IMG/VR virus record: IMGVR_UViG_3300017963_000253
Span: 1-64,000 of that record
Source of the DNA: a virus
Direction: 5' to 3' (one strand)
DNA: 64,000 nt
Shown here: in pieces, positions 7,779 through 52,472 of the stretch
How the letters are laid out: every line of letters begins with the position of its first letter
How positions within the stretch are numbered: position 1 is the stretch's first letter
Notes under the pieces: model-generated
Database searches by the model: none
The model's input: the letters and a program-made list of their open reading frames with translations, nothing else
Told to the model about the DNA's origin: nothing
Made by a program: the position numbers and the translations under genes

Positions 7779-10130
7779 ATGACAGTTCGCAGATTCGGAC
7801 CAGTACAGGGCGCTGGAGTGGCTTTGGAGGAAGAGCAGGGAGACCGCCAAATCATCCCCGCGCCGCTCGGGGTCACCCTCATGGTGGGGGAGTTTCCCAA
7901 GGGTCCGGTTGCCACTCCGGGGTTCCCCGCCGGGAAGATCGATTACAGGAAGCGTTACGGGAAGCGGAGGTTGGAGAACTCCGAAGCCCCGACCGCTGCT
8001 TTCGACTTCTACAAGCTGGGGCGTGGGACGGGGGAGTTGATCCCCTGGCGTGTGACCGCGGGGGACGAGGCGAAGGCTTGGATGTACCTCTACACCCGGC
8101 AGGGGAGCGCGGCGTCTCCTGCTTCCGGAAGGAAGATCCTGGGACGTCTCTTCGCCAAGAACGGTGGGATCTGGGGCGGGCAACGGGACGTCCACGTGGA
8201 CGAGATCACCGGAGCCGGGGACCTGACGGAGACCTCCCTGGACACCGGGGACACGATGATCGAGAACGAGTGGGCGGGTGGGACCCTTCAGCTGAAGAAG
8301 GTCAGCACCAAGACCTACCGGATACTCGGGAATACCGCCGCCGGGGTAGTTCAGCTCGAGGCGGACCAGACGGTCCTCACTGACTGGAACGCCGGGGTCG
8401 GGACACCCGCGAACCGCTACGTCCTCTCCCGAGAGAACGTGGATCGCCTCGGGACGGACCAACACCTCGCGGTGGAGGTACGGGACGGGATCGAAAACCC
8501 CAGCACGGAGTTCGGGATCTACGTCTACGAGGACAACGCGCTGGTCAAGCGCTGGGAGAACCTGAACACAGATCCCACGAAGGCGAACTACTGGGAGAAG
8601 GTGATCAACGACGACAAGGGGAACTTCTGGGTGGAGGCGGAGGACGACTACGTGGGGGACAAGACGGTGGCGACGGTCCGTCCCGCCAACTTCTACGGGG
8701 TCTCCAAGACCCTGACCTCCTTGACTCTGACCCTCCCGGATCCGGACGTGACTATCGACTCCCCGGGGGCGGCGGATCCGACGGTGGCAATTGGTTCCCT
8801 CGGTTCCCTCGTCCTCTCCCAGGTGATCACCGGGACGGTGGAGAACGGCGGGGCGGACATCCGCTGGACCACTACCCTCGGTCCCCTGGAGGTGGTGCAG
8901 GCGGCTTTCACCGGGGTGGCGACGGACCTCGGGGAGGAACTCCTCTCCGTGACCGTGACCAACGGGGGAACCGCTCTCTCGGACGGGGACAAGATCGTCA
9001 TCGACGTCAACGTCATGGTTCCGGACGAGGCGAAGGGTGGGAAGGTCTGGCCGGACAAGGTCAACGAGCCAAACCTCTCCTTCCCGATCGACAGCAACAC
9101 CCGGACGAGCGTCTCAGTCCGGACCGGCGTGGACCTGACGGACGGCGGAAGCATCTCAGCCGGGGAGGAGTTCATGCTCCAGTACCGGCAGGAGTTCGGG
9201 GGCGGTCACAACGGATCCGCGGTCACGGACTCGGACTACCTGGCGGCGTTCGACGCGGTGACCTCCACCATCAACAAGCTCTTCGGGAAGAACAAGGGCC
9301 TGGTGAAGATGGCGGTCCCGGGGGTCACCTCCTCCGTAGTGGTGAAGGCGGGCTTGGAGTACGCCGCGGCGCGGAACTACCAGTTCGGTTACGAGATCCC
9401 GGCCTCCATCCTCGCGGAGGCGGAGGCGGTGGACCACGTCAACTCCACGATCGGTCGCTCGGACTACGGGTTCACCTACTTCCCGAGCTTCGGTTCGGTC
9501 CTGGACCCGGACGCAACTCCGGGGGCGACGGACGTCCCGCTGAAGCAGCAGACGCTCCTCGGGATGATCCTGGGGCGGCACGCCCTGACCGCCTACAACT
9601 TCGACGGGTATCACAAGGCCCCGGCGGACATCGAGACCACCCTCCCGGACGTCCTGGAGCTGACGACCGGGGACGAGGAGACGGCGGTCGCCCTGAACGA
9701 GGAGGTCCTGAACCCGCAGGGCTGCAACGTGGTGAAGTTCCGCCAGGGTGTGGTCATTGTCTTCGGGGATCGGACCACCTCCCCGACCGCGGAGTGGAAG
9801 TGGCTGCATCAGCGTTCCCAGATGAGCCACTACGAGAACCTCCTCCGGGAGAACTACGATTGGATCGTCTTCGCCATCAACGACCGGACCGCCTGGGAGC
9901 GGGTCGGTTCCTCGATCCGGGAGTACTTCTTCGCGGAGTGGGTGAAGGGCGCTCTTCGCGGGGAGACCTTCGAGAAGGCCTTCTCCCTGAAGATCGACGA
10001 GGAGAACAACACGGACGCGACGGCGGCGGCGGGGGACCTGAACGCGGAGATCCGCCTCAGACTCGCGGAGACCGTGGAGCGGTTCAAGATCGTGATCGGG
10101 AAGGCGGGCATCTTCGACAGCGTCGAGTAG
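7779..10130 (+). CDS. Contractile tail sheath protein
   Basis: A 783-residue protein, ATG with GAGGAGGAAG upstream. Residues about 1-130 contain the sheath N-terminal strand pattern. Residues about 600-783 match the sheath C-terminal domain: ALNEEVLNPQGCNVVKF, then G-D-R-T-T, then a helix with ENLLRENYDW, F-A-I-N-D-R-T-A-W, and a final domain ending in K-I-V-I-G-K-A-G-I. It assembles around the tail tube and contracts during injection. At 783 residues it is long; residues about 300-470 look like an inserted strand-rich domain. The sheath-small protein-tube order is standard for myoviruses. Confidence 0.93.
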   Translation: MTVRRFGPVQGAGVALEEEQGDRQIIPAPLGVTLMVGEFPKGPVATPGFPAGKIDYRKRYGKRRLENSEAPTAAFDFYKLGRGTGELIPWRVTAGDEAKAWMYLYTRQGSAASPASGRKILGRLFAKNGGIWGGQRDVHVDEITGAGDLTETSLDTGDTMIENEWAGGTLQLKKVSTKTYRILGNTAAGVVQLEADQTVLTDWNAGVGTPANRYVLSRENVDRLGTDQHLAVEVRDGIENPSTEFGIYVYEDNALVKRWENLNTDPTKANYWEKVINDDKGNFWVEAEDDYVGDKTVATVRPANFYGVSKTLTSLTLTLPDPDVTIDSPGAADPTVAIGSLGSLVLSQVITGTVENGGADIRWTTTLGPLEVVQAAFTGVATDLGEELLSVTVTNGGTALSDGDKIVIDVNVMVPDEAKGGKVWPDKVNEPNLSFPIDSNTRTSVSVRTGVDLTDGGSISAGEEFMLQYRQEFGGGHNGSAVTDSDYLAAFDAVTSTINKLFGKNKGLVKMAVPGVTSSVVVKAGLEYAAARNYQFGYEIPASILAEAEAVDHVNSTIGRSDYGFTYFPSFGSVLDPDATPGATDVPLKQQTLLGMILGRHALTAYNFDGYHKAPADIETTLPDVLELTTGDEETAVALNEEVLNPQGCNVVKFRQGVVIVFGDRTTSPTAEWKWLHQRSQMSHYENLLRENYDWIVFAINDRTAWERVGSSIREYFFAEWVKGALRGETFEKAFSLKIDEENNTDATAAAGDLNAEIRLRLAETVERFKIVIGKAGIFDSVE

Positions 10131-32432: not shown

Positions 32433-32792
32433 ATGTTTCCCATCTTCGAACTTCCCCTGGCGGTCGCCTGCTCGCGCCGCCTCCTCCCAATATCCAAACT
32501 CGTCTACGCCTCCCTCCACTCCTGGCAGTACCACCGGGAACCCGCGGACTTCGAGGAGATGGCGGACCGCGTGGCTATCTCGAAGCGGGAGTTCATCCAG
32601 ACCCTGGAGTACCTGGAGGAGGAGGGTCTCCTGGAGTACACGACGGAGCCGGAGTGGTACAGTCTGATAGATCCCCCCTGGTTAGAGGAGGAGGCCGCGA
32701 GGCACAAGTGCCCGGAGTGGTTGACCGTACTGGATCCGGACGGAGACCTCCTCCCGGACGAGGAGGAGGAAGGGAAGGAGGCCGCGCTATGA
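32433..32792 (+). CDS. Winged-helix DNA-binding protein
   Basis: A 119-residue product, ATG with AAGGAG upstream. Residues 20-75 form a winged-helix pattern (SKLVYASLHSWQYH, F-E-E-M-A-D-R-V-A-I-S, then T-L-E-Y-L-E-E-E-G-L-L-E-Y) as seen in DnaD-type and replisome-organizer proteins. The end is very acidic. It directly precedes another winged-helix gene, then the helicase loader, so it probably acts in replication initiation or its regulation. Confidence 0.68.
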   Translation: MFPIFELPLAVACSRRLLPISKLVYASLHSWQYHREPADFEEMADRVAISKREFIQTLEYLEEEGLLEYTTEPEWYSLIDPPWLEEEAARHKCPEWLTVLDPDGDLLPDEEEEGKEAAL

Positions 32793-34024
32793 ACGCCAAC
32801 TGCTACCTCTTCCTGAAGACCCCGCTCCCAATCCAGGCAACTAAGAAGATCTCCCGCGTCGAGAAGGACGTTTGGAGTGCCGTCTTCACCCTCCGGGAGA
32901 TCAACAAGCGGAGGACCCCCACCGTAAAGAGAATAGCCGCGGTGGCAACTAACGGGGACCGGCGAAACGCGAAGCGGGCGCTCCTCAAGCTGGAGTCGCT
33001 TGGTCTCATCTCCGCCCGAAAGAAGAGAACCCCGGGCGGCTACGCCATGGACTACCGCAGCGAGTGGCCGGACTGGATCGAAGAGGAGGGACGGCGCTTC
33101 CTCCTGAAGGAGAAGAACCGATCTGCGGACGTGGAGGGGGAGGAGTACTTCGACGATAAGTACCCCGAGGATGTCCCAATTTCACCCGAAAATGAGGGAG
33201 AGGGGGTGCGTCATAGTGACGCAGGGGGGGTGGGTCAAGGTGACGCAGGGGGGGTGGGTCAAGAGACCCCCCCCTTTAAGACTATAGAGACTAAGGAAGA
33301 GATCTTAAAGCAAACGGGTGTCCCGTTTGCCGACGAAGAAGAAACCTGGGACGACCCGCCGGAGGACGATGAGGAAGAGGATCTGAACCCGGACGGGGAC
33401 TCCAGGACCGGGAAAGAGCGCCTCGCAGCGGAGAGGGACCGCCGGAAGAAGGGGAGGAAGAAGAAGGTTCGGAAGGCCTCCGGGTCAGACCTCGCGGAGA
33501 CTCCCTCGGAGCGGTGGGAGTTCCAGGTCCACCGCGGTAAACCCGTTCGTACTTGGGGCGGGATAGACATCATCGGATACTGGGTAAGTAGGTTTCGGGA
33601 GGTTTGGCGGAAGGAGGACCCAATGTTCTTTGTCTCCGGTGTGGACGCGGTCTACGTTCGGAGGTGCGCCAGGAACTCGAAGCTGTTCGTCAAGAATCAC
33701 CTCGGGGGGGACAACCGGAGGGCGAAGGAGGCCATAGACGGGATCCTGGAACACGCCAATGAGCGGGGTAGGCCGGTCTCCCTGGCTTACTACTTCACTC
33801 CGAAGAGTGACTCCGCGCTCCGGGAGGTCCTCGGGGAGCGCGGGTTGAGTAGACCCCCGCGGGAGAAGACGCTCCGGGAGATGAACAACGAGAGCGGGAG
33901 CAAGGATCTGGACTACTGGCGGGAGGAGTCGGAGCGCTGCAGAAGGAAGCGGATGGCGAAGCGTAAGAGAGAAGAGGCGAAGAAGAGGGCCGCGGGGGAG
34001 AAGAGGGCCGCGAATGGGAACTGA
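32789..34024 (+). CDS. Replication initiator-like protein with internal repeats
   Basis: A 411-residue product, ATG 32789 overlapping the previous stop (an upstream extension is discarded). Residues 8-85 are a winged helix (KISRVEKDVWSAVFTLREIN, then N-A-K-R-A-L-L-K-L-E-S-L-G-L-I-S). Residues about 125-240 are a flexible linker that starts with G-V-G-Q-G-D-A-G repeats and turns very acidic, then very basic. Residues 255-370 form a folded helical domain (GIDIIGYWVSRFREVW). The lambda O protein has the same plan, with iterons in its gene's middle, and here DNA repeats sit at the same place. The next gene is a DnaC-like loader, as in O-P. Confidence 0.68.
   Translation: MNANCYLFLKTPLPIQATKKISRVEKDVWSAVFTLREINKRRTPTVKRIAAVATNGDRRNAKRALLKLESLGLISARKKRTPGGYAMDYRSEWPDWIEEEGRRFLLKEKNRSADVEGEEYFDDKYPEDVPISPENEGEGVRHSDAGGVGQGDAGGVGQETPPFKTIETKEEILKQTGVPFADEEETWDDPPEDDEEEDLNPDGDSRTGKERLAAERDRRKKGRKKKVRKASGSDLAETPSERWEFQVHRGKPVRTWGGIDIIGYWVSRFREVWRKEDPMFFVSGVDAVYVRRCARNSKLFVKNHLGGDNRRAKEAIDGILEHANERGRPVSLAYYFTPKSDSALREVLGERGLSRPPREKTLREMNNESGSKDLDYWREESERCRRKRMAKRKREEAKKRAAGEKRAANGN
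33203..33274 (+). repeat. 24-bp tandem direct repeats inside initiator gene (candidate iterons)
   Basis: Three units of 24 bases begin at 33203, 33227 and 33251 with GGGGTG; the third diverges after 13 bases. They encode G-V-x-x-x-D-A-G. Unit 1 contains TGCGTCA-TAG-TGACGCA (33207-33223), a perfect inverted repeat, and unit 3 GGGTC-AAGA-GACCC (33256-33269). Confidence 0.75.
33203..33330. other. Candidate replication origin
   Basis: The 24-bp repeats are followed by an A+T-richer segment (33275-33316) bounded by the inverted pair CTTTAAG (33274-33280) / CTTAAAG (33304-33310), and then a nine-pair palindrome with a TGT loop, GCAAACGGG/CCCGTTTGC (33310-33330). Repeats, an AT-rich stretch and a palindrome inside an initiator-type gene are the layout of lambda-type origins. 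Function inferred from arrangement only. Confidence 0.5.
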
Positions 34025-34640
34025 GCGCAATCTGATCCGGGAGTTGAAGCTCCGCTGCGGGGTTCCTCGCGCCTTCGCGGAGTTGGAACTCTCTGAGATG
34101 GACTCCGGTGGGGACGAGAAGTACCGGGAGGACCTCCAGGAGTTCCAGAGGATAGCCCGGGAGCGGTTGGACACCGGGAAGTTCCTGGATGATCCCCTCT
34201 CCCTTTACGTCTCCGGCCCGTTCGGGACCGGGAAGACCCGGATCCTAACCGGGCTCCTGAAGCGCGCCTACCAGCACCTCGTTTCCCGTCGCCCGGGACT
34301 GATCGCGCCGCGGACCTCCCCGCTCTTCGTCCGCGCCGCGGACCTCGTTGAACTCCGGTTTCGGAGGTTCGAGGAGGAGGAGGAGATGGAACTTCTCCGG
34401 GAGCGGGTGAAGAGTTCCGTCTTCCTGGCGATAGACGACGTGGGGCGGCTTAACGACTTCCGCGGGGAGATGAACTACCTGGAGCGGGTCGTGGAGGACC
34501 GGGTGGAGGAGGGTCTCTCCGTCCTGATCTCCTCCAACCTCGGGGGGCCGGAGCTGAAGAAGAGCGCTCCTCGCTTCCTGGACTTTCTCTCCTTCTTCGA
34601 CGTCTACTCGCTGACTTGCGCGTCCTGGAGGGGTAGATGA
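34014..34640 (+). CDS. DnaC-like helicase loader (AAA+ ATPase)
   Basis: A 208-residue product overlapping the initiator gene by 11 bases. Walker A is G-P-F-G-T-G-K-T near residues 68-75; Walker B F-L-A-I-D-D-V-G is near 137-144; a sensor-like S-V-L-I-S-S-N follows. Size and domain order match DnaC/IstB-type loaders. It precedes the DnaB-like gene with an ATGA overlap, giving initiator, loader and helicase in consecutive order. Confidence 0.85.
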   Translation: MGTERNLIRELKLRCGVPRAFAELELSEMDSGGDEKYREDLQEFQRIARERLDTGKFLDDPLSLYVSGPFGTGKTRILTGLLKRAYQHLVSRRPGLIAPRTSPLFVRAADLVELRFRRFEEEEEMELLRERVKSSVFLAIDDVGRLNDFRGEMNYLERVVEDRVEEGLSVLISSNLGGPELKKSAPRFLDFLSFFDVYSLTCASWRGR

Positions 34641-35941
34641 GCCTGACCCTGGACGTCAACGTCGAGAACGAGCAGGTCGTAATTGGGGCGCTGATTAACG
34701 ACCCGGAGGCGTTCCGGGACGTCCTTCCGCGCCTGGACCCCGCCCTCTTCGCGGAGGAGAAGCACCGGGCGCTTGTCTCCGCCCTCCGGGAACTCCGGAA
34801 GCGTGGGGCGGGTTACGCGGCGGACACCGTGGTGGAACTGACCGGGGAGGAGGTGAAGTTCAAGTACCTCCGGGACCTGGAAGAGAACTTCGGGGCGCTC
34901 CCGAAGGAGAACCTGAAGGTCCACCTGGAGGTCCTCCGCTCCAGCTCCGCGAAGTACGCCGCCTCTGAAGCCTTCTTCGAACTCTATGGCGCGTTGGATG
35001 ACGCCCACGCCCCGGCGGCGGAGGCGGAGGCCGCGGCGCTCTCCGTCCTCCGGAACCTTCGGGAGCGTACCTCCGGAGGAACGCGCCTTCGCGGGGGGAA
35101 TAAGCTCTTCTCCGACTGGTACGGGAACCTTGCGGACCTAGCCGCGAAGAAGACCCAGAACTTCGTGGGGACTCAGTTCTCGGCGCTGGACGCCCACCTC
35201 TATGAGGGACTCCGTCCCTCCAAGGTGGTGGTCATAGCGGCGCGCCCCGGGATGGGGAAGTCCACCCTGTGCTCCAACCTGACCCTACGCCTGGAGCGGG
35301 TCGGTCTTAACGTCCTCTCCGTGCCGGTGGAGGCGGGGACGGAGAGCGTGGTTGAGCAGATGGCGTGCTGTAAGGCCAAGGTCTCCGCGGAGAAGGTGAT
35401 CAAGACCCCGGACGAGCTGACGCCCGGGGAGTTGATGTCCCTCCAGCGCGCGGGGCGGAAGATCCTGAGCAGCGAGCGGATCCAGTTCGACGACGAGATG
35501 GCGAGTCTGGACGACCTGGAGATGGCGGTGGAGGGGCGGGACTTCGACGTCGTGATCCTGGACCTCTTTGAGTACCTCCTCCAGGGGGAGCTAGACTCCG
35601 CCTTCGTCACGGAGCAGCTCCGGAGGCTGAAGCGGCTCGCGAAGCGGCGGAACTTCTGTGCGGTGGTAGTCCAGCAGATCCGGAGGATTAAGCGGAAGAA
35701 GAACCCCCGCCCTCTCCTTGCGGAGCTGAAGAACTCCGGCGGCTACGAGGAGGTGGCGGACCTGGTGATCCTCCTCCACCGCGCCGCCTACTACAACCCG
35801 GAGACGTGTGAGGAGGACGTCCTGGAGATGAAGATCGCCAAGCAGCGGCGGGGACCCCAGAACGTGACGGTGGGGTTCAAGTTCCACCCGGATATCTGCC
35901 GGGTCGGGGCGCACACGAAGGACTACGATGGGTCGAGCTAG
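34637..35941 (+). CDS. Replicative DNA helicase, DnaB-like
   Basis: A 434-residue product. Residues 5-100 match the DnaB N-terminal domain (E-Q-V-V-I-G-A-L-I-N-D-P, then FAEEKHRALVSALREL). Residues about 180-430 form the RecA-like motor: Walker A A-R-P-G-M-G-K-S near 203-210, Walker B V-V-I-L-D-L-F-E-Y near 303, a Q-Q-I-R-R sensor near 350 and N-S-G-G-Y-E-E-V-A-D near 368. It unwinds DNA at the fork together with the loader upstream and primase downstream. The start of the next gene overlaps by 14 bases. Confidence 0.9.
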   Translation: MSLTLDVNVENEQVVIGALINDPEAFRDVLPRLDPALFAEEKHRALVSALRELRKRGAGYAADTVVELTGEEVKFKYLRDLEENFGALPKENLKVHLEVLRSSSAKYAASEAFFELYGALDDAHAPAAEAEAAALSVLRNLRERTSGGTRLRGGNKLFSDWYGNLADLAAKKTQNFVGTQFSALDAHLYEGLRPSKVVVIAARPGMGKSTLCSNLTLRLERVGLNVLSVPVEAGTESVVEQMACCKAKVSAEKVIKTPDELTPGELMSLQRAGRKILSSERIQFDDEMASLDDLEMAVEGRDFDVVILDLFEYLLQGELDSAFVTEQLRRLKRLAKRRNFCAVVVQQIRRIKRKKNPRPLLAELKNSGGYEEVADLVILLHRAAYYNPETCEEDVLEMKIAKQRRGPQNVTVGFKFHPDICRVGAHTKDYDGSS

Positions 35942-37082
35942 GGACCTGGAGCGGACCCAGCGGCTACTCCGACGCCTGGACCTGGAGGAGGTCCTAGAGG
36001 AGGGCCTCGGGATCGACGTCCTCTGGAGGAGCGGGGCGGACGCTTACGCGGAGTGTCCGGACCCGGAGCACGTGGACGAGAATCCGTCTTTCCACGTCTG
36101 CGTGGAGGACGTCGAGGACTCTTCCGGGCGCTCGATGCTGGGGTGGTTTAACTGCTGGAGTCACCCGGATCCGGACGGGATGCGGGGCTTCAACTTCCTA
36201 GACCTCGTTGCCAAGGTCCGGAACGACCTCTGGGGGGAGCGGGAGGACGGGCGGTTGAACTGGCCGAACGACGCGCAGCGGGCGGAGGCCGCGGCCTGGC
36301 TCCGGGAGGAGTTCCTGACCGGGGAGGAGCGGGAATCTCGGGCGGAGCTGGCGATGCGCCGCCGTCGGAGGGTCTCCGCGCCGGAGTGGCGGGAGCTGCT
36401 CTTCCCCCCGAACGTCCCTATTGATCGGGCGGAGCCACGCTTCCGGGAGTACTTGGAACGCCGGGAGATCCCGCTTCAGCGCGCCCGGGAGTTGGACGTC
36501 CGGGTCGTCTACCACGCCGGGGAGGCGCTGAAGGGAGCTATCTCCGGGACGGTCCCGGGGGTCCTCTTCCCCATCCCCTGGGAGGGGCGGGTCGTGAACT
36601 GGTTCCTCCGCGGGGTGAACAAGCGGCTGAAGTCCCGGGACAAGGGGCGGTACTGCCCGGGCCTCCCCCTCGGGAAGGGAGCCGGGGTCCTCTGGGCTCC
36701 GGACGGGCTCCCGCCGGACCGGCCGGTGGTCCTCGTGGAGGGTATCTTCGACGCGGAGCGGGTCCGGGCGTTACTCCGACGGGAGGGTCTGGAGCGCTCC
36801 GTCGCCGCCGTCCTCGGGGGGCGGCTCTACCCGGCCCAGGCGCAGCGCCTCCGGACGGTCCCGTACCTCATCCACTTAGCGGACGGGGACGACGGGGGGT
36901 TAACCTTGGGTAAGACTGTGGATGAACAGGTGGGGAGCTTCACCCGGGCGGAAGTTCGGCAGCTCCCGGAGGGTACGGACCCCGGGGACGCGCCTGAGGA
37001 CGTCCTCCTGAGGTACCTGGAGCCCCCGCGGAGCCGACTCGAGTGCAGAGTTCGGTTCCGGCGGACCCGGAGGTTGAGATGA
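35928..37082 (+). CDS. DNA primase with zinc-binding and Toprim domains
   Basis: A 384-residue product. C43-P-D-P-E-H48 and C76-W-S-H79 make a variant CHC2-type zinc site near the N-terminus. A Toprim region follows: V-V-L-V-E-G-I-F-D-A-E-R near 268-280, with the catalytic Glu at about 271, and H-L-A-D-G-D-D-G near 315. The last 60 residues are basic. It makes RNA primers with the DnaB-like helicase. A compact DnaG-like primase, shorter than bacterial DnaG (about 580-600 residues). Confidence 0.84.
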   Translation: MGRARDLERTQRLLRRLDLEEVLEEGLGIDVLWRSGADAYAECPDPEHVDENPSFHVCVEDVEDSSGRSMLGWFNCWSHPDPDGMRGFNFLDLVAKVRNDLWGEREDGRLNWPNDAQRAEAAAWLREEFLTGEERESRAELAMRRRRRVSAPEWRELLFPPNVPIDRAEPRFREYLERREIPLQRARELDVRVVYHAGEALKGAISGTVPGVLFPIPWEGRVVNWFLRGVNKRLKSRDKGRYCPGLPLGKGAGVLWAPDGLPPDRPVVLVEGIFDAERVRALLRREGLERSVAAVLGGRLYPAQAQRLRTVPYLIHLADGDDGGLTLGKTVDEQVGSFTRAEVRQLPEGTDPGDAPEDVLLRYLEPPRSRLECRVRFRRTRRLR

Positions 37083-37947: not shown

Positions 37948-38053
37948 CTTTCTTTTAAGTAATTCCAAGAACTTAAAGCTAATAATTTATTTTATATCTG
38001 GATATTTTCTTACTATATATTAAGATATTAATATGAGCCAAGGAGATAAAAAG
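37948..38053 (+). promoter_or_regulatory. AT-rich intergenic control region
   Basis: A 106-base gap of very high A+T content in an otherwise GC-rich genome. It includes TATATT at 38016-38021 and TACTAT at 38011-38016 as -10-like elements, although no convincing -35 lies at 17 bases. The ribosome site AAGGAG (38040-38045) sits eight bases before ATG 38054. It probably holds a promoter. The region also contains no gene. Confidence 0.5.
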
Positions 38054-38303: not shown

Positions 38304-38615
38304 ATGGATATCGAAAAGGCGTTGACCCCTTCTGAGACCTGGGACCTGTTGAAGGCCGGGAAGCTCTACATGGACTTCGAGGGCGACGTTCCCCTCCACG
38401 TTTGGAGCGTGGAGAACGACCGCTTCTTCCGTTACCCCGGGGAGCGGGTCTACGTCGAGAGCGAGGACGGGTGGAAGACCCTTTGGGTCAGGCAAAAGGT
38501 GAGGTCGATCTGCAGAGGTGCCAGCGGAGACGGGGTTGTCTTGAACTTCAAAAACCACAACGGAGCCTCCGGGTGGTACCCGTGGCAGAACGTGCGGCTC
38601 GAGGTGGGAAAGTGA
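38304..38615 (+). CDS. Hypothetical small protein
   Basis: A 103-residue product with AAAGGG upstream. It shows W-D-L-L-K-A-G-K near the N-terminus and a compact Trp-rich strand region (VPLHVWSVENDRFFRYPGER). The stop overlaps the GTG of the recombinase. No known domain. Probably co-transcribed with the recombinase. Confidence 0.6.
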   Translation: MDIEKALTPSETWDLLKAGKLYMDFEGDVPLHVWSVENDRFFRYPGERVYVESEDGWKTLWVRQKVRSICRGASGDGVVLNFKNHNGASGWYPWQNVRLEVGK

Positions 38616-39319
38616 AGTATATCGGGTATATACGCGTATCGACGCTAGACCAAGCCCGGACGGGCGTCTCCCTCGCGGACCAGGAGGAGAAGATCCGTCA
38701 GTACGTGGCGCTCGCGGACGGGGAACTCGTGGACGTTATCCAGGACGGGGGGCGGAGCGGGAAGGACCTCGACCGGGAAGGGGTCCAGGAGGCGTTCTCC
38801 CGGGTCCTGAACGGGGAGGCGGACGTCCTAGTGGTCTACGCCATCGACCGCCTCTCTCGTTCCGCTCTGGACCTCCTGCAGCTGGTCTCGAAGCTTAGGG
38901 ACGGGAAGCGGGGGTTCGCTTCCGTCCGGGAGCAGATGGACTCAACTACGCCCCACGGACGGTTCACGATGACGATCCTCGCGGCGGTCGCGGAGATGGA
39001 GCGGGAGATGATTCGCTCCCGCTGCCGCGACGCCTCCGCGCGCTGCGTTCGGGACGGGCGGGTCTGGGGGAAGGTCCCCTTCGGCTACCAGAGGGACCGG
39101 GGTGGGAAGCGCCTGATCGAGGACCCCGTCGAGATGGAGGTCCTCCGCGGGATCCTGTCTCTCCGGGACGCGGGGTACAGCTACGCGAAGATCGCCGCCC
39201 ACCTGAACCGTCGCGGTCGGGGACCGAAGATCGGCGCGCGCTGGTACCCCTCCTCCGTTCGCTCCGTCGTACTGACCCACCAAAAGTACCGCGAGGTTCG
39301 TAGCTTACGAGAGGGTTGA
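38612..39319 (+). CDS. Serine recombinase (resolvase/invertase family)
   Basis: A 235-residue product starting at GTG 38612 (GTGA overlap). Residues 4-20 are I-G-Y-I-R-V-S-T-L-D-Q-A-R with the catalytic Ser at position 10; A-I-D-R-L-S-R follows near 77 and A-E-M-E-R-E near 128, all family motifs. The end has a short recombinase-type helix and an HTH (Y-S-Y-A-K-I-A-A-H-L-N-R). It is larger than Hin (about 190) and much smaller than large serine integrases (over 450). It could invert, resolve or integrate DNA; no obvious att or crossover site is seen. Confidence 0.84.
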   Translation: MKYIGYIRVSTLDQARTGVSLADQEEKIRQYVALADGELVDVIQDGGRSGKDLDREGVQEAFSRVLNGEADVLVVYAIDRLSRSALDLLQLVSKLRDGKRGFASVREQMDSTTPHGRFTMTILAAVAEMEREMIRSRCRDASARCVRDGRVWGKVPFGYQRDRGGKRLIEDPVEMEVLRGILSLRDAGYSYAKIAAHLNRRGRGPKIGARWYPSSVRSVVLTHQKYREVRSLREG

Positions 39320-44269: not shown

Positions 44270-45254
44270 CAGTGGGATGCTGGGTCATGTCTTGGACGAG
44301 ACCCTTCGGTCCCTGGGTCACGAGCGGTTGATCCCGAGCGGTCGGAACTGGAAGAGCCCTTCCACCGGGGAGATAGAGCCGGACTTCCGGGACCCTGTAT
44401 ATCTTCGTTGGCTGGAGGGGGCGAACGTGGACGTCTTCTTCCACGCCGGGGCGTTGGTGGGGACGACGCGATGTGAGGCGCACGCGGAGGATGCCTGGAG
44501 CTGCAACGTCGAGGCGGTCCGGAGGATCGCGGATATCCTCTCCCGGCGACGGATCTACACCGTCTTCTACGCCACTGCTGCGGAGATGGAGCCGGGGGAG
44601 TATGGGTTGGACCGGCCTATCGACGTGGGACGGACCCCCCGGAACCCGCTTACCCGTTACGGGATTACGAAGTTGGCGGGGCGGGAGTTGATGGAGGTCC
44701 TTTTCCGGGAGCGTGGTGTGGAGGAACTCCTTCTCCAGGTCTATCCTAGCTTTGGCTTCGGAGGGGCGCGGGACGGGAACTCCTGTGTGGCCGACCTTCT
44801 GAAGTGTGCCCTCGGGGTTTATGACCGCAGACCCTTCCTCCCGCTCGCCCCGGAGAACATCAAGGAGGTCACACCGCACTCCTACATCGCGGAACTTTCC
44901 GTCCGCGCCGCGGAGCGACGTCTCTCTGGGAAGATTCCTATCGCGTCTGGGGTCTGGACCCGTTACGCGGAGATCGTGGAGATGGTCGAGGATGTCACCG
45001 GGGAGAAGTTGGACCCGGAGTGGCGTGCGGACCTGGACTACAAGGGGGACTTCTTACATGTACGGGAGGACGTCTTCTCCTTGGCAGAGGATCTGGGGGT
45101 TCCGGTCCTGACGCGGGTGGAGATCAAAGCGGCTCTCGTGGATGAGATGAACGGGATCCTGAACGCGGAGGGTGCCGGGGTGATGGCGAATCACGAGTGG
45201 CGGTTCGCGGAGAAGCTTGTGGAGGCGTTCCCGGGTTGGGAGGGACGTAGATGA
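44247..45254 (+). CDS. Extended SDR epimerase/dehydratase (RmlD-like)
   Basis: A 335-residue product, ATG 44247 overlapping the kinase gene by 23 bases with GGAGAGG upstream. The N-terminus carries T-G-S-S-G-M-L-G (NAD site), and R-Y-G-I-T-K near 137 holds the Y-x-x-x-K pair. V-F-F-H-A-G-A follows the usual third strand. It matches dTDP-4-dehydrorhamnose-reductase or NDP-sugar epimerase-type proteins. Sugar or nucleotide-sugar processing is implied; whether for a DNA modification or envelope change is unknown. Confidence 0.76.
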   Translation: MRYIVTGSSGMLGHVLDETLRSLGHERLIPSGRNWKSPSTGEIEPDFRDPVYLRWLEGANVDVFFHAGALVGTTRCEAHAEDAWSCNVEAVRRIADILSRRRIYTVFYATAAEMEPGEYGLDRPIDVGRTPRNPLTRYGITKLAGRELMEVLFRERGVEELLLQVYPSFGFGGARDGNSCVADLLKCALGVYDRRPFLPLAPENIKEVTPHSYIAELSVRAAERRLSGKIPIASGVWTRYAEIVEMVEDVTGEKLDPEWRADLDYKGDFLHVREDVFSLAEDLGVPVLTRVEIKAALVDEMNGILNAEGAGVMANHEWRFAEKLVEAFPGWEGRR

Positions 45255-45934
45255 TTAGATATTTGAATAAATTAGTTGAAGTATTGACTAATTTGGATAA
45301 CGAAGAGCGTATTGAGGCTTTGAATTTGGTAAAGACGGAGCTTCATAAAATTTCTCCTTTCAAGGCGGAGCCTGTGGATTGTGTGCTTTGGGAGCGTACT
45401 TCTCGTGTAATTGCTAACGATTACAATCCTAATGCTGTTGCTCCTCCGGAAATGGAGTTACTTCGGATTTCGATAGAGTCGGATGGATTCACCCAACCTG
45501 TTGTGACGGATTTCAGTGACGAGTCTGAGGTGTTTGTGGTGGTGGATGGATTTCACCGTAATCGAGTGGCTCGAGAGTGTGAATCTGTGGTGGATAAGTT
45601 GGGTGGTTACCTTCCGATAGTTCAGATACGTGCTGATCAGAAGGGGCGTTCAGATAGAATTGCTTCGACGATTCGTCACAATCGCGCAAGGGGTAAGCAT
45701 CAAATCGCAAAGATGTCTGATATTGTGATTGAATTGAAGCGGAGAAATTGGTCTGACAAGAAGATAGGTCGTGAACTTGGGATGGATCCTGATGAGGTGT
45801 TGCGATTGGCTCAGATTACTGGGTTAGCAGAAGCGTTTCGGGACAAGGAGTTCACTCGGGCCTGGGAGGCAGATTTGAAGTTGGATGACGAGTTGATCGA
45901 GGGATTGGTCGAAGAGGTCGACTTGGATGAGTAG
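45251..45934 (+). CDS. ParB/Srx-fold protein, IbrB-like
   Basis: A 227-residue product, ATGA overlap with the SDR gene. Residues about 45-125 match the ParB nuclease-type fold (A-V-A-P-P-E-M-E-L-L-R-I-S-I, G-F-T-Q-P-V-V, V-V-V-D-G-F-H-R-N-R-V). A helix-turn-helix near 150-190 follows (ELKRRNWSDKKIGRELGM). IbrB proteins pair with IbrA (PAPS-reductase-like). The DNA is very A+T-rich (38% G+C in a counted 60-base line at 45301), in sharp contrast with neighbours. It is the first gene of a three-gene foreign-looking cassette. Confidence 0.75.
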   Translation: MIRYLNKLVEVLTNLDNEERIEALNLVKTELHKISPFKAEPVDCVLWERTSRVIANDYNPNAVAPPEMELLRISIESDGFTQPVVTDFSDESEVFVVVDGFHRNRVARECESVVDKLGGYLPIVQIRADQKGRSDRIASTIRHNRARGKHQIAKMSDIVIELKRRNWSDKKIGRELGMDPDEVLRLAQITGLAEAFRDKEFTRAWEADLKLDDELIEGLVEEVDLDE

Positions 45935-46343
45935 GTTGGAAACGATAGATTTTGAGAGAGTTCAACCTGGTAGAGTTTACTTTCATTACTTGGATTTGGA
46001 GGAGTATCACGCCGGGTTTTGGAAGTCTGTTTACAATCGGGATATTAAGGCGCGCTTGACTGCTACTTCGGTTAAGATTTTGCGGGATCGGGATATTTTT
46101 AGTGGTGCAGTTCAACGTGTGATAAAGGAGTGGCCAAACTCTTGTCTAGCGGAATTTACTGCTCCTGGAAATCACAGGGCTTGGTTGGGTCAGGCTGCGT
46201 GCTGTCTCGTTGCTGGTGTTCCGGAGAACCTGACTCGGTTAGCGTGGTGGAAGTTAACTGAGGTCCAAAGAATCGCCGCTAACGATATTGCGGAGATTGC
46301 TATTCGAGATTGGAGGATAAGACGTGTTGAAACGAAGACTTGA
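45927..46343 (+). CDS. Unknown protein of the ParB/PAPS-reductase cassette
   Basis: A 138-residue product between the IbrB-like and IbrA-like genes, overlapping both by 8 and 20 bases. It contains a central DIFSGAVQRVIKEWPNSCLAEF stretch and then H-R-A-W-L-G-Q-A-A-C-C-L, with paired Cys. No family is recognised. It shares the low G+C content and close spacing of the flanking genes, so it is part of the module. It could be a partner or immunity factor; function not known. Confidence 0.7.
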   Translation: MSRLETIDFERVQPGRVYFHYLDLEEYHAGFWKSVYNRDIKARLTATSVKILRDRDIFSGAVQRVIKEWPNSCLAEFTAPGNHRAWLGQAACCLVAGVPENLTRLAWWKLTEVQRIAANDIAEIAIRDWRIRRVETKT

Positions 46344-47556
46344 GATCAACGTCTTGGAGGCAGCTCGGGAACGGATAGCGCGGGTTTTCGACGATTTTGA
46401 GAGAATTTATGTGGCGTTTAGTGGGGGTAAGGACTCAACTGTGATGATGCACTTGGCGTGTGAAGAGGCACGCCGTCGGGAGTGTAGAGTTGGGATCTTA
46501 ATGGTGGATTTGGAAGGTTACTTTGAAATCACGGTGAAACACTGCGTTGAAATGTTTGAAATGTACGCGGATGTGATAGAGCCGTTTTGGATTTGTCTTC
46601 CGATTCACCTTCGTAATGCAGTGAGTGTGTTTGAGCCGTTTTGGGTTTGTTGGGATCCTAAAGCAGAAGGGGCTTGGGTTCGACGACCTCCAAAGGAAGC
46701 GATTGTTGATTCAGGGTACTTTCCTTTTTTCCGTGAAGGTATGGAGTTTGAGGAATTTGTGCCGCTATTTGGGGATTGGTACGCAGATGGGAAGCGGTGT
46801 GCGTGTCTTGTGGGTATCCGCACGGACGAGAGTTTGAATCGCTTTCGAACAATTGCGATTTCCCAAAAGGAGAGATTTGAGGGTCTTTCTTGGACGACGA
46901 AGATCACCAAGGATCTCTATAACGTATACCCTATTTACGATTGGTCTGTTGAAGATATTTGGGTATATCACGCGAAGTTTGGAGATAAGCCTCACAATCG
47001 GCTGTACGATTTGATGCACCAAGCGGGTATGACGCCTTCCCAGATGCGAATTTGTCAACCTTATGGAGACGATCAAAGGCGTAACTTGTGGCTATTTCAC
47101 ATTATCGAACCTAAGACTTGGGCCAGGATTGTTGCACGTGTGAATGGTGCTAATGGGGGAGCACTTTATATTCAGGAGTGGGGAAATATTAATGGTTATC
47201 GAAAGATAACTAAACCTGTTGGGCATACTTGGAGAAGTTTCTCAGAACTCCTCGTGGCTTCGATGCCAGAAAAGTCAAAGATTCACTATCGTAACAAGAT
47301 CCTTCTTTTTGAAAAGTGGTGGACAGAGCGTGGTTACCCTGAAGGGATTCCTGATGAGGCGGATCCACGAATGGAGGCTAATCGCAAAGCTCCAAGTTGG
47401 CGGAGAGTATGTAAATCGTTACTTAGAAACGATTATTGGTGTAAGGGACTTGGATTTAGTCAGCAGAAGAGTGCTGCCTACAAGGCTTACTTGGAGTTGA
47501 TGAAGCGGCGGAAGAAATCTTGGGGTGTCAGTGATGTTAAGTTGGGGTTTGTATGA
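46324..47556 (+). CDS. PAPS-reductase-like protein, IbrA/DUF3440 type
   Basis: A 410-residue product, GTG start. S-G-G-K-D-S-T at residues 33-39 is the PP-loop ATP-pyrophosphatase motif, followed by V-M-M-H-L-A. V-G-I-R-T-D-E-S-L-N-R-F-R near 160 and I-Y-D-W-S-V-E-D-I-W-V near 202 match the IbrA/PAPS-reductase family. The C-terminal part (Y-R-N-K-I-L-L-F-E-K-W-W) corresponds to the DUF3440 extension. It may activate a substrate by adenylation and transfer sulfur or act on nucleic acid. The low G+C content continues to its end. Confidence 0.82.
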   Translation: MLKRRLEINVLEAARERIARVFDDFERIYVAFSGGKDSTVMMHLACEEARRRECRVGILMVDLEGYFEITVKHCVEMFEMYADVIEPFWICLPIHLRNAVSVFEPFWVCWDPKAEGAWVRRPPKEAIVDSGYFPFFREGMEFEEFVPLFGDWYADGKRCACLVGIRTDESLNRFRTIAISQKERFEGLSWTTKITKDLYNVYPIYDWSVEDIWVYHAKFGDKPHNRLYDLMHQAGMTPSQMRICQPYGDDQRRNLWLFHIIEPKTWARIVARVNGANGGALYIQEWGNINGYRKITKPVGHTWRSFSELLVASMPEKSKIHYRNKILLFEKWWTERGYPEGIPDEADPRMEANRKAPSWRRVCKSLLRNDYWCKGLGFSQQKSAAYKAYLELMKRRKKSWGVSDVKLGFV

Positions 47557-50480
47557 GAAGTCCACGTGTTAAGAGACTTCAAGAGAACGGGTTTCGATCT
47601 GGAGCTTCTCTTGTAGCTGATGCGGACACTCAGGCGTTTGCGGAGGATCAAGTAGAGCACCGCGCGCAGTACCAGCAGACCGCTGCGTCCGTGGAGGAGG
47701 TCAAGGACAAGCGGAGCGTTGAGGACCTCCAGGACGCTACGGACTTCGACGACTTGAAGAAGGCGGCTTGGACCTTCAATCCGGGGACGGAGTACTACCA
47801 CGGGTGGTCGGAGGGAAACGACATAATCTTACTTCGGAGGGATCCGGAGACGGGGCGGCGGATCCGGGAGATTCACCCGTTTGAGTGGTACTTCTACGTC
47901 ACTCGGGAGGACTATGAGAGTGTACCCAAGGATTCCTGGGATTGGCTCTGTAGTTGTGGAACGCTCGCGGAGAAGGTGGTTCCGGACGAGAACTATCCTG
48001 ATTTGTACTATCGGGTTTACGTAAAGAACCCTGTTCCGAAGTTGGATAAGAAGAGGATCTTTTCGAATGTCGGAGATCCGGATCGTGGTGCGAATTGGGC
48101 GATTCCTTTCTATCGAGGTGAGAGTTCAAGATCTATCAGATGGCCACGGGACCGGGAGAAGTGGACGAGAGTTCACAAAGTGATCAATTGGTGTGAGCGA
48201 AAGGGAGTGACACCGTTGGAGGCGGATCTTACGCCGAAGCAGCGGTTTCTCACGGATTACGATATAACGATCACTCCGAAATTTCGGATAGGGTTCTTCG
48301 ATATTGAGACGGATGACTCTGTTGGAGGGTTCGATAAGAAGGAGCAGTGTCGAATTCTCTCAATAGCTTGGGAGGGGGACCGCTTCGAGGAAGATCCAAC
48401 TGATTGTGGATTCTTGTTGCTACAGGAGGAGACGGACGAGGCTGAGAAGAAGTTGCTTTTGGAGTTCAAGCGTAGTTGCGTCAATAAATACGACGTATTG
48501 TCGGCTTGGAATGGGACTGGGTTTGACTTTCCTGTTCTATTCTATCGGTTTTGGAAGCACAAAATTCGAATCGACTGGCGTTATCACCTCTTTGCAGATC
48601 CGCTTCCTATCTTCAAGCGGCACTACGTTAGAGCCGGAGGGGATGCGATTTCCTACTCCCTTGATTCTATCGGGGAGAAGGTTCTGAAGATGAATAAGAT
48701 CGACTGGAGGACGATCTTTCGGAAACGTCACCCTGGGGTGGTCCCGAAGTTCATCAACCTCTACCGGCACGACCCGGAGCTTTTGGAGGAGTACAACCGT
48801 CTGGACGCCACAATCCTCCGGAAGCTGGAGGCGTTCACCGGGTTCGTGGCGATCGAGCAGATCTTCTGCCGGATTGCGAACGGGTTCCCGAACGATTTTC
48901 AGATTTCGACTAAGGTGGACCAGCTCTTACTGAAGAAGGGGTTCAAGGAGGGGCATCACTTCCCGACGAGATACTGGTCTCCTGGTAAGCCGGAGAAGTA
49001 CGAAGGAGCTTACGTATTTCCGCCGGTTCGCGGGATGCACCGGAACGTTGCCGCGTTTGACTTCAAGAGCCTGTACCCCTCGATGATCTCCAGTTTCAAT
49101 ATCTCCCCGGAGACAATCGTGAAGGAGGAGAACAGGGCGGATTTTGAGGAGAAGGACCTTTGCAGGATCCCGGAACTTGATTTGGAGCGGGAGGACGGGG
49201 ACGGGGAGATAGAGGTCTTGCAGAAGGGTGGTTCCACCTTCAGGTTGGACAAGCAGGGGTACCTCTCGCAGATGTTTGAGCGTACTTTGATGAGGAGGAA
49301 GAAGTACCAGGACCTTCAGAAGGAGCGTTTGAAGGTCACCGGGACGACTCAGGACGATCTCTTCCTCCTCTACTATCGCTTGGCTTACTCCTTCAAGCGG
49401 TTGGGGTTATCCTTCTACGGAGATATCGGGAACTCCAGGTCCAGGTTCTACGACACTGAGGTGGCGGAGGCGATCACTCTCTCTGGTCAGTTCTTTATCA
49501 AGGAAACAGCTAAATACGCCCAAGAGTGCGGAATGATTCCACTTTATGGGGACACCGATTCCATCTACGTCCAGTTAGCACCTACTGAACAGGAGTGGGA
49601 TTCGCAGGAGGAGCGGATCGCGGAGTTGAACGAAATTGGGGAACGCTTCGTGGAGTATTGTCAGGAGCGTTATCTGAAGATCCTCAAGGAGCACAATTGC
49701 AACCTGGATTGGAACCTTATCTTCCTGGAGTTCGAGGACACCTACGACCGGATTTTCTTCATCGTCAAGAAGCGGTACGCCGGGAGGATGCTCTCCCACA
49801 AGGGGGGGAAGACGGACCACGTGGAGGTCAAGGGTCTCGAGGTGATGCGGAGCGATTGCTCCGGGAAAACGCGGGCGCTTCAGCAAGCGGTGTTGGACGG
49901 AATTCTCATGACGGGGATGACCGCGGAGCAGCTGGAGCGGGAACTGATAGAGCCGGAGTTCAACAGGTGCGTCTCCGGTGAACTTACCGTGGACGAGGTC
50001 TGCATCGGGAAGGGGATCTCCAAGGAGCCGGAGAAGTACAAGACGACCCCGCTCCACGTGGCTTTGGCACAGGAGATCAAGGACCACGGGCGGGAGTTCT
50101 TCGTTGGGATGAAGGTGGAGTACGTGGTCACCGGGGTGAAGCCGAAGCTCCAGGGCGTGACGCGAGAGGAGTACGAGGACTCGAACGGGGAGTTGGTTTA
50201 CGACCCGGAGTACTACTGGGATCGGGTGGTCTACCCCGCCTCGATGAGGATCCTGGAGGTCTGTTACCCGGAGAAGGACTGGACTCGCTGGAAGGTGGCG
50301 GACAATCGGAGGCGGCGGAAATTGGTGGACCGCTACAAGATCTGGTTAGCTGACCCGAAGCGGGTAGAGAAGGCGCTCCTCCAGATCCGGGAGAATAAGC
50401 GTGGACTCCTAGGACCGCCGGAACTGGCGGAACTCCGGACCGCGCCCCGCGTCCGCATCTTGGATAGGAGTGAGGGATGA
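47553..50480 (+). CDS. Family B DNA polymerase
   Basis: A 975-residue product overlapping the previous stop (ATGA). The 3'-5' exonuclease motifs are seen: F-F-D-I-E-T near 247-252 and Y-N-R-L-D-A-T near 417. Polymerase motif A is F-D-F-K-S-L-Y-P-S (Asp 503), motif B-like L-G-L-S-F-Y-G-D near 625, and motif C Y665-G-D-T-D-S. K-K-R-Y-A-G near 747 is the KxY motif. It replicates the phage genome. The first ~30 codons share the AT-rich composition of the upstream cassette and the rest is GC-rich, so the 5' end looks chimeric. Confidence 0.93.
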   Translation: MRSPRVKRLQENGFRSGASLVADADTQAFAEDQVEHRAQYQQTAASVEEVKDKRSVEDLQDATDFDDLKKAAWTFNPGTEYYHGWSEGNDIILLRRDPETGRRIREIHPFEWYFYVTREDYESVPKDSWDWLCSCGTLAEKVVPDENYPDLYYRVYVKNPVPKLDKKRIFSNVGDPDRGANWAIPFYRGESSRSIRWPRDREKWTRVHKVINWCERKGVTPLEADLTPKQRFLTDYDITITPKFRIGFFDIETDDSVGGFDKKEQCRILSIAWEGDRFEEDPTDCGFLLLQEETDEAEKKLLLEFKRSCVNKYDVLSAWNGTGFDFPVLFYRFWKHKIRIDWRYHLFADPLPIFKRHYVRAGGDAISYSLDSIGEKVLKMNKIDWRTIFRKRHPGVVPKFINLYRHDPELLEEYNRLDATILRKLEAFTGFVAIEQIFCRIANGFPNDFQISTKVDQLLLKKGFKEGHHFPTRYWSPGKPEKYEGAYVFPPVRGMHRNVAAFDFKSLYPSMISSFNISPETIVKEENRADFEEKDLCRIPELDLEREDGDGEIEVLQKGGSTFRLDKQGYLSQMFERTLMRRKKYQDLQKERLKVTGTTQDDLFLLYYRLAYSFKRLGLSFYGDIGNSRSRFYDTEVAEAITLSGQFFIKETAKYAQECGMIPLYGDTDSIYVQLAPTEQEWDSQEERIAELNEIGERFVEYCQERYLKILKEHNCNLDWNLIFLEFEDTYDRIFFIVKKRYAGRMLSHKGGKTDHVEVKGLEVMRSDCSGKTRALQQAVLDGILMTGMTAEQLERELIEPEFNRCVSGELTVDEVCIGKGISKEPEKYKTTPLHVALAQEIKDHGREFFVGMKVEYVVTGVKPKLQGVTREEYEDSNGELVYDPEYYWDRVVYPASMRILEVCYPEKDWTRWKVADNRRRRKLVDRYKIWLADPKRVEKALLQIRENKRGLLGPPELAELRTAPRVRILDRSEG

Positions 50481-51076
50481 AGCGCGCAAGGACCAAGAAG
50501 CTCAGCTCTAAGGCGGCGCTGGAGGAGCACCAGAAGCGGGGGGAGCGGTTCGGCTTCCTCCGGCAGCGACTCGCCCGGGTGGACGTGGAGGAGGTCTGGG
50601 AGACCCTGGAGGAGGCCCTCTCCCTGGGGGAGGGGCGGGGGAACGCGGAGCGGATCCTCCGGGCGCTGGATACGACGGAGGCCAACCTCCGGCGGGCCGG
50701 GATGCTCCTCCAGGTCGCGATCGAGGAGCTGGACGAGTTCGACATCCACTGGAGGGCCGCTTACGCGGAGTGGTCCCGGCACGCGCGGGACGCGCTGGAG
50801 CGGGACAAGAAGGAGAAGCGGATGTCCGGTCAGATCACCACGGAGGTGATCGAGAACTGGATCGCGGAGAACCTCCCGGACTACACCCAGTGGAGGCGCG
50901 CTCGCCGGGACCTGGAGCGCAACCGGAACTTGATGAAGCACATGTTCGCCGCGTGGGAGTTCCGCTCCGCCTCTCTTCGGAAGCAGGCGGATCTGGTGGA
51001 GCGGAGACGCGGCGTGGACACTAATATGCTGCCCCGGAGGGGCGAGAGCAAAGGAGAACGACGTGGGACTGAGTAA
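50477..51076 (+). CDS. Coiled-coil protein, possible recombination mediator
   Basis: A 199-residue helical product, ATG overlapping the polymerase stop. Residues 120-180 (TTEVIENWIAENLPDYTQW, then R-R-A-R-R-D-L-E-R-N-R-N-L-M) have the rhythm of UvsY-like mediators and related phage proteins found beside RecA-type genes. The two downstream genes are a gp32-like candidate and a UvsX-like recombinase, an order consistent with the mediator idea. No proof from motifs. The next start lies inside its last 14 bases. Confidence 0.55.
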   Translation: MKRARTKKLSSKAALEEHQKRGERFGFLRQRLARVDVEEVWETLEEALSLGEGRGNAERILRALDTTEANLRRAGMLLQVAIEELDEFDIHWRAAYAEWSRHARDALERDKKEKRMSGQITTEVIENWIAENLPDYTQWRRARRDLERNRNLMKHMFAAWEFRSASLRKQADLVERRRGVDTNMLPRRGESKGERRGTE

Positions 51077-52472
51077 AGAGCAGCGCCTGGAGCGGGCGCG
51101 GAAGCGGCACGAGCAGCTCCGGAAGGCGACCAAGACCCGGGGTCTGACGGACCGGATGGACTGGAAGCCGAAGTCGAAGATCGTCCTTCACCCGGATTCA
51201 GACATCGTGGACCGACTCCGCGTCTGGTTCCCCGTCCTCCTGGAGGACGACGAGGAGAAGGAGGAGAAGCGCGGGAAGAAGGGGAAGAAGGGGAAGAAGG
51301 GGAAGAAGAAGCGGAAGAGCAACGTGGTTAACATCCCCTTCAACGTCCCGGACGACCCGGCGCTATGCCCGTTCACTCAACTCCGGGAGAAGCTGGAGGA
51401 GGACGAGGAGATCGACGAGGAGGATACGGTCATCTCCGTTGGGAGCGGGCGGGACAAGGTCGAACTCTGCAAGGGGGAGATCCTCGCCTGGGACGGGTAC
51501 GACTTCCGGAAGAGTTTGAAGCCCCAAGCGGACTTCGTCACCGTTGCCGTGAAGATCGAGGACGCCAAGAAGAATCGCCCGGATACTCTGAAGGCGGAGA
51601 CGCTCGCCGCCGCCAAGTCCCTTGGGAACGAGATCCGGAAGGAGATCGAGAGCGAGGTGGACGAGGGCGGAGAGGAGGCGTCCCCGTTCTTCGTTCCGTA
51701 CCCGTTTCTGATCAAGTTTGATGAGGCGGAGCGCGGGTCTGACATGTACTCCGCGCGGGCGATGTCGAATAAGGTCTCCGAGGTAGAGGAGGACGTGGAA
51801 CTCCAGGAGATCCTGAACGCGGAGCCTCCTTCTCTGGAGTCCGAGTTGGAGTTGGCGGACCTCGAGAAGTGCGTGGAGATGATCAACGATGCCATCGTGA
51901 TAGATGGACTCTCCGTGGAGCTGAAGGGGGAGGGTCGGAAGCGCCGCAAGAAGAAGCAGGAAGAGCAGGAGCAGGAGGAGGAAGAGCCGAAGGAGGAGGA
52001 GGTCGAGGAATCGGAGAAAGAGGAACCGGAGGAGGAAGAGCAGGAGCAGGAGGAGGAAGAACCGGAGGAGGACGAGGAGGAAGAGCAGGAGCAGGAGGAG
52101 GAAGAGCCGAAGGAGGAAGAGGAGGACGAGGTAGCGCGAGCGGAGAGGATGCTTGCGGAGGCTAAGGCAAAGAAGGAGGCCAAGGCAAAGAAGGAGGCCA
52201 AGGCAAAGAAGGAGGCCAAGGCAAAGAAGGACTCCGAGGCAAAGAAGGACTCCGAGGAGAAGCCGAAGAAGACCGCGAAGCGGAAAAAGAAGGTCGAGAA
52301 GAAGAAGGTCGAGAAGAAGGAGGACGGGGAGGAACTTGGTTGGGAGCCGGGGGAGGATGAGGATTTCGACATCTGTCCTAAGTGCCGGAAGAAGGTCCCT
52401 ACGGACGCGATGGAGTGCCCTCACCCCACCTGTGATGCCGTCTACGCCCCGGAAGATGGGGACCCGTTCTAG
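51063..52472 (+). CDS. gp32-like ssDNA-binding protein candidate with repeats
   Basis: A 469-residue product, GTG start. Residues about 28-270 look like the structured core (DWKPKSKIVLHPDSDIVDRL, then N-I-P-F-N-V-P-D, then L-C-K-G-E-I-L-A-W, P-F-F-V-P-Y-P-F). Residues about 300-365 are almost only Glu, Gln, Pro and Lys in E-Q-E-Q-E-E-E-E-P repeats, then come A-K-A-K-K-E repeats to 400. A zinc ribbon (C-P-K-C ... C-P-H-P-T-C) closes the chain. Acidic tails are common in ssDNA-binding proteins; the assignment is tentative. Confidence 0.55.
   Translation: MGLSKEQRLERARKRHEQLRKATKTRGLTDRMDWKPKSKIVLHPDSDIVDRLRVWFPVLLEDDEEKEEKRGKKGKKGKKGKKKRKSNVVNIPFNVPDDPALCPFTQLREKLEEDEEIDEEDTVISVGSGRDKVELCKGEILAWDGYDFRKSLKPQADFVTVAVKIEDAKKNRPDTLKAETLAAAKSLGNEIRKEIESEVDEGGEEASPFFVPYPFLIKFDEAERGSDMYSARAMSNKVSEVEEDVELQEILNAEPPSLESELELADLEKCVEMINDAIVIDGLSVELKGEGRKRRKKKQEEQEQEEEEPKEEEVEESEKEEPEEEEQEQEEEEPEEDEEEEQEQEEEEPKEEEEDEVARAERMLAEAKAKKEAKAKKEAKAKKEAKAKKDSEAKKDSEEKPKKTAKRKKKVEKKKVEKKEDGEELGWEPGEDEDFDICPKCRKKVPTDAMECPHPTCDAVYAPEDGDPF
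51944..52260 (+). repeat. Low-complexity tandem repeats in ssDNA-binding candidate
   Basis: Two arrays: GAGCAGGAGCAGGAGGAGGA-type Glu/Gln repeats (about 51955-52130) and a 15-18-base unit containing GGCAAAGAAGGAGGCCAA repeated four or more times (about 52165-52240). Each preserves the reading frame, so the number of copies could change without breaking the gene. Confidence 0.7.

Follow-up and report, generated by a model that had tools for sequence, protein, structure and literature searches.

Does a short stretch of direct repeats and palindromes, situated in the middle of a putative initiator gene, serve as the replication origin of the phage that carries it? This had been proposed in an initial annotation of a viral DNA, of which a stretch of 64,000 nucleotides was analyzed here (positions 1-64000 of a virus record that is 75,133 bases long, in the following called the window).

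The phage and the genes around the locus

The window contains a tailed-phage gene set with a contractile tail (sheath at 7779-10130), and it also encodes a DNA polymerase, a UvsX-like recombinase, a serine-type integrase, and a ribonucleotide reductase. This gene content indicates a tailed phage that has much of its own replication machinery. The plus strand bears 70 of the 71 mechanically called genes. The phage is little-known and divergent among contractile-tailed phages. Searches with the initiator protein retrieved no relative from phages or from genome contigs, and from viral contigs only a single close relative, with 99.94% identity over 13.3 kb and no difference within the candidate origin element. 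Searches with the helicase loader and the DnaB-like protein likewise retrieved only this near-identical contig, and a DNA search of plasmids gave no match. The features of the locus are:

32789-34024, plus strand: candidate O-like replication initiator gene, 411 aa (profile matches to PHROG 678 and PHROG 3502)
33202-33263, plus strand: iteron candidates, namely two full and one partial 24-nt direct repeat (TRF)
33207-33223, no strand: perfect 7-bp dyad TGCGTCA-TAG-TGACGCA in repeat unit 1
33248-33273, no strand: G/C hairpin with 8-bp arms, GGGGGGGT...ACCCCCCC
33275-33314, no strand: candidate DNA unwinding element, ranking third in instability among the separate 40-bp loci of the 75-kb record
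33310-33330, no strand: palindrome GCAAACGGG-TGT-CCCGTTTGC, 9-bp arms and 3-nt loop
34014-34640, plus strand: DnaC/IstB-like helicase loader (PF01695, E 4.6e-6; PHROG 50, E 4.3e-16)
34637-35941, plus strand: DnaB-like replicative helicase (PF03796, E 1.9e-35; PHROG 19, E 1.1e-52)
35928-37082, plus strand: primase-like gene with a Toprim-like domain (PHROG 47 DNA primase, E 2.3e-15)

By profile comparison the initiator gene is remotely O-like. The match to PHROG 678 (replication initiation O-like) is weak but significant, with E-values of 6.5e-6 for the whole protein and 2.5e-4 for residues 1-116, and PHROG 3502 is matched with an E-value of 1.2e-5. Because residues 1-116 match on their own and the linker alone matches no profile, the O-like match is independent of the repeats. 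The protein consists of a predicted winged-helix N-terminus, a linker that is predicted with low confidence to be disordered, and a C-terminus without known relatives, for which the profile search gave nothing convincing and no recognizable partner-binding domain. Structure models of the whole protein and of the N-terminal part were of low confidence (mean pLDDT 44.5 and 43.3, respectively), and both contain three helices and a two-strand wing at the position expected for a winged helix (helix-helix-helix-strand-strand). Comparison of the protein sequence with the PDB yielded no relative.

The loader gene starts at 34014, before the initiator gene has ended, so that the two overlap; according to the PF01695 and PHROG profiles its product is no P homolog. 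The match of the primase-like gene to PF13155 (E 0.005) fails the cut-off of that profile. A winged-helix gene followed by a DnaC-like loader and a DnaB-like helicase had been described before, and this gene context was recovered, with an O-like profile match for the first gene and a primase-like gene following the helicase gene.

Directly upstream of the initiator gene a second small winged-helix-like gene is located (32433-32792), which has a weak HTH_Crp_2 match (E 0.006). Its E-value against PHROG 3502, the profile that also matches the initiator N-terminus, is 0.058. Its product is possibly a paralog of the initiator or a regulator.

Repeats and an adjoining unstable stretch

The direct repeats and the dyad that had been noted from the sequence are present. 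TRF reports a 24-nt period at 33202-33263 with 2.6 copies, a score of 103, and 92% matches. In the best register, unit 1 occupies 33206-33229 (GTGCGTCATAGTGACGCAGGGGGG) and unit 2 33230-33253 (GTGGGTCAAGGTGACGCAGGGGGG), while the partial unit 3 (GTGGGTCAAG) begins at 33254 and runs into a C-run. The counterpart of the unit 1 dyad in unit 2 (33231-33247) is imperfect. Further copies of the 24-nt unit with up to five mismatches were not found in the 75-kb record, which may not be a complete genome.

The repeats exceed what the coding sequence would produce by chance. The tandem score of the initiator gene is 29, compared to a maximum of 12 in 200 codon-shuffled genes, and when the repeat zone was resampled synonymously 2000 times, the maximum was 26, so that none reached 29. 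The gene is probably constrained at the level of the DNA in this part. Between about 33113 and 33400 its codon usage deviates from the norm (z down to -4.96), while most of the remaining gene is near average. This codon dip supports, but does not prove, a DNA-level constraint, because it ranks only about 17th in strength among the dips of the record; several of the stronger dips belong to an AT-rich region or to uncertain gene calls.

Twelve nucleotides 3' of the repeat array begins the candidate unwinding element, which is also the least stable 40-mer within the surrounding 5 kb. The A+T content of the tract is only about 60-65%. The AT-richer stretch is bordered, as the initial annotation had stated, by the inverted repeat CTTTAAGA/TCTTAAAG (33274-33310). 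The nine-pair palindrome at 33310-33330 was found as described; it is one of five hairpins in the record whose stem has at least nine pairs without mismatch and whose loop measures 3-10 nt. The order observed on the DNA is thus repeats, unstable stretch, and palindrome.

As the region had been picked after it had been seen, a comparison of 60 genes is the chief guard against selection bias. Only two of them combine a tandem repeat above the shuffled level with an adjacent least stable site of the gene, namely the initiator gene and a Lys/Glu-rich gene at 51063-52472, and the initiator gene has the highest in-gene instability of all 60 (z 4.26). The GC skew at fourfold sites has no change point (permutation p 0.57) and is uninformative as a signal for an origin. 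The gene at 51063-52472 is unrelated to the initiator gene and contains long tandem repeats with an 18-nt unit (52157-52249) and a 45-nt unit (52029-52130).

The repeats could also stem from a neutral or recent tandem duplication, i.e., slippage would have copied an in-frame 24-nt unit in the disordered linker without any role in binding. The near-identity of unit 2 and the partial unit 3 fits a young event, a linker without a fold should be tolerant of such insertions if the low-confidence prediction of disorder holds, and disordered genes like the one at 51063-52472 bear tandem repeats as well. However, a duplication leaves unexplained why a locus that ranks third in instability within the record adjoins the repeats and a palindrome follows, why the codon dip extends past the repeats and on to about 33400, and why the layout matches those of lambda gene O and of a remote initiator family (see below). 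We therefore regard it as unlikely.

Hairpins, folding, and a possible promoter

A further hairpin, which is absent from the initial annotation, is formed at 33248-33273 by the truncated third unit and the C-run after it. Taken as single-stranded DNA, a region of 143 nt folds much more strongly than its dinucleotide shuffles (z = -6.5, DNA parameters).

Within the AT-rich stretch lies a weak sigma-70-like promoter match in antisense orientation (33281-33308, 9/12). The antisense promoter pO of lambda is located at the start of gene O (PMC3985674), and the match could be a parallel to it.

Dyads can be operator-like, and together with the antisense promoter match (33308-33281) and the winged-helix-like gene directly upstream they would agree with an intragenic operator, which serves autoregulation or binds another protein, e.g., the product of 32433-32792, and is no origin. 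Yet an operator requires neither in-phase tandem units nor a melting element with a palindrome, the observed layout coincides with that of the lambda origin, and autoregulation by origin binding is compatible with origin function. An operator in place of an origin is hence highly improbable in our view.

Comparison with lambda and SPP1

As a positive control, lambda gene O was passed through the same scripts. Its best tandem is the annotated iteron region, its least stable site is the AT-rich element just 3' of the iterons, and directly next to this lies a 28-nt hairpin. The fold z-score of the lambda origin is -6.1 in comparison to -6.5 here. As the DNA of a known origin folds equally strongly, strong single-strand folding does not discriminate between an origin and an RNA element. 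This bears on the proposal that the palindromes act in the mRNA, by attenuation, by stabilization, or by slippage at the G7 and C8 runs. Both runs are inside the open reading frame and stop codons follow soon in the two other frames, which together with the folding would suit such a role, but the plus strand has no terminator-like site with a T-run, Rfam was searched without a match, and a role in the mRNA does not predict a melting element. Among the explanations considered it has the least to recommend it, and we give it hardly any credence. The neutral repeat, the operator, and the RNA element are all ranked below an origin.

The likeness to lambda, which the initial annotation had invoked with the iterons in the middle of gene O, is borne out by the control. 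In both phages the locus lies in the middle of an O-type initiator gene, where the linker is encoded, the order and polarity of dyad-symmetric repeats, AT-rich DNA, and palindrome are the same, with the palindrome at 33310-33330 in the place of the 28-nt palindrome of lambda, and a helicase-loading gene is situated directly downstream of the initiator gene. Judged from its sequence, the element has every testable defining feature of the lambda type. There are also differences. The units are 24 bp long and G-rich, with two full units and one partial unit, in contrast to four units of 18 bp in lambda; the loader is an AAA+ protein of the DnaC/IstB type instead of P; the initiator, unlike O, has no detectable C-terminus of the P-binding type; and this phage, unlike lambda, encodes a DnaB and a DNA polymerase of its own as well as a primase-like protein. 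In lambda, O dimers bind to each 18-bp hyphenated inverted repeat, the O complex destabilizes the AT-rich DNA right of the iterons, and a flexible linker joins the DNA-binding and the partner-binding domains of O (PMC6022878). Two iterons beside the AT-rich tract have been reported to be sufficient in vitro (PMC7466680).

The Bacillus phage SPP1 offers a second precedent. Its genes 38, 39, and 40 encode an origin-binding protein, a helicase loader, and a DnaB-type helicase, and oriL is within gene 38 (PMC6316719). By this description SPP1 shares with the phage studied here the order initiator-loader-DnaB, and in both the initiator gene contains direct repeats and an AT-rich element. Besides oriL, SPP1 possesses oriR as a second origin, whereas no second copy of the unit was found in the possibly incomplete record. 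By sequence, the window combines the DNA layout of lambda with an SPP1-like gene order and a primase-like gene. The precedents of lambda (PMC6022878, PMC7466680) and of SPP1 genes 38-39-40 (PMC6316719) favor an origin.

Remotely related initiators

Six members of a remote initiator family were surveyed (L010 from Bradyrhizobium phage BDU-MI-1, L005, L017, L019, and L020 from viral contigs, and L018). In five of the six (L005, L010, L017, L019, L020) the linker contains 24-nt (8-codon) repeats, which code for GGVxQxD-type peptides, and the least stable 40-mer lies at or after the last unit. A significant linker tandem is lacking in L018 and also in the Arthrobacter phage initiator L011. As the members are related to one another, the surveyed family amounts to about one independent case beside lambda. 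L005 and the initiator studied here match the same part of PHROG 678, and the N-terminal identity to the Bradyrhizobium-phage-like initiators is only about 30-37% in a gappy alignment. The family of the L005 type differs in having more repeat units, a dyad of the form GTGTCA...TGACAC with a longer spacer, and no strong palindrome after the AT-rich stretch, and its fold z-scores as single-stranded DNA lie between -3.2 and 0.3. The terminal palindrome is not universal. Two further matches to the repeat-peptide pattern were dropped, L007 because no initiator-like frame was present at the match, and L004 because the sequence ends at the repeat.

It is tempting to speculate that in a number of unrelated phage lineages the initiator gene contains such an origin, and that the origin DNA dictates the linker peptide. 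The GGVxQxD octapeptide, which recurs both in the initiator studied here and in the Bradyrhizobium-phage-like ones, would then result from translating one common 24-bp dyad unit in a constant frame, with the TGAC half-site being kept while protein and unit co-diverge. For the time being, we see this as a tentative and rather doubtful generalization.

Probable initiation at the locus and its meaning

Several lines of evidence point to an origin: the excess of repeats over shuffled and resampled sequences, the codon dip, the instability 3' of the repeats with a hairpin next to it, the fold z-score, the comparison of 60 genes, the lambda control, five of the six surveyed members of the remote family, the O-like match, the neighboring replication genes, and the published precedents. 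Weighing against it are the number of units (only two full and a partial one versus four in lambda), the tract of only about 60-65% A+T, the GC skew without a turning point, the C-terminus without a partner-binding domain, a sole relative that is 99.94% identical, L018 and L011 without a significant tandem, and the 17th rank of the codon dip. Taken together, 33202-33330 is probably the theta origin of the phage, of the lambda/SPP1 type and located where the phage's own initiator gene codes for the linker. The sequence tests (repeats, codon dip, melting site, palindrome, O-like match, and gene order) are in agreement with the original proposal of an origin, in which binding and initiation are inferred.

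By analogy to lambda and SPP1, the locus would act as follows. The initiator, probably as dimers, would contact the dyad-symmetric 24-bp units through its winged-helix N-terminus, and the resulting complex of protein and DNA would put strain on the neighboring AT-rich element at 33275-33314 and open it. The initiator would then recruit the DnaC/IstB-like loader, which would put the phage-encoded DnaB on the opened strand, and the primase would be next.

The design is already known from lambda and SPP1, and the locus is a further example of it, which is convincing but fairly ordinary. Mildly surprising is the exactness with which a contractile-tailed phage that is otherwise unrelated repeats the lambda layout. 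Phages well outside the circle of the models appear to share the lambda/SPP1 layout, and a divergent phage with its own polymerase, helicase, and primase-like genes now has a concrete and testable candidate origin. A simple scan for phage origins also suggests itself, namely for an O-like initiator gene with a linker repeat and, just 3' of this repeat, the gene's least stable site.

Other features of the record

Of all 40-mers in the record, the one at 37983 is the least stable; it is situated shortly before the gene for the serine-type recombinase (38402-39319; PHROG 95 integrase, E 1e-62), the presence of which suggests a temperate life style. From 45000 to 50000 the G+C content is clearly lower (0.48-0.55 versus about 0.63); this stretch includes the DNA polymerase gene (47553-50480) and was possibly acquired from another source.
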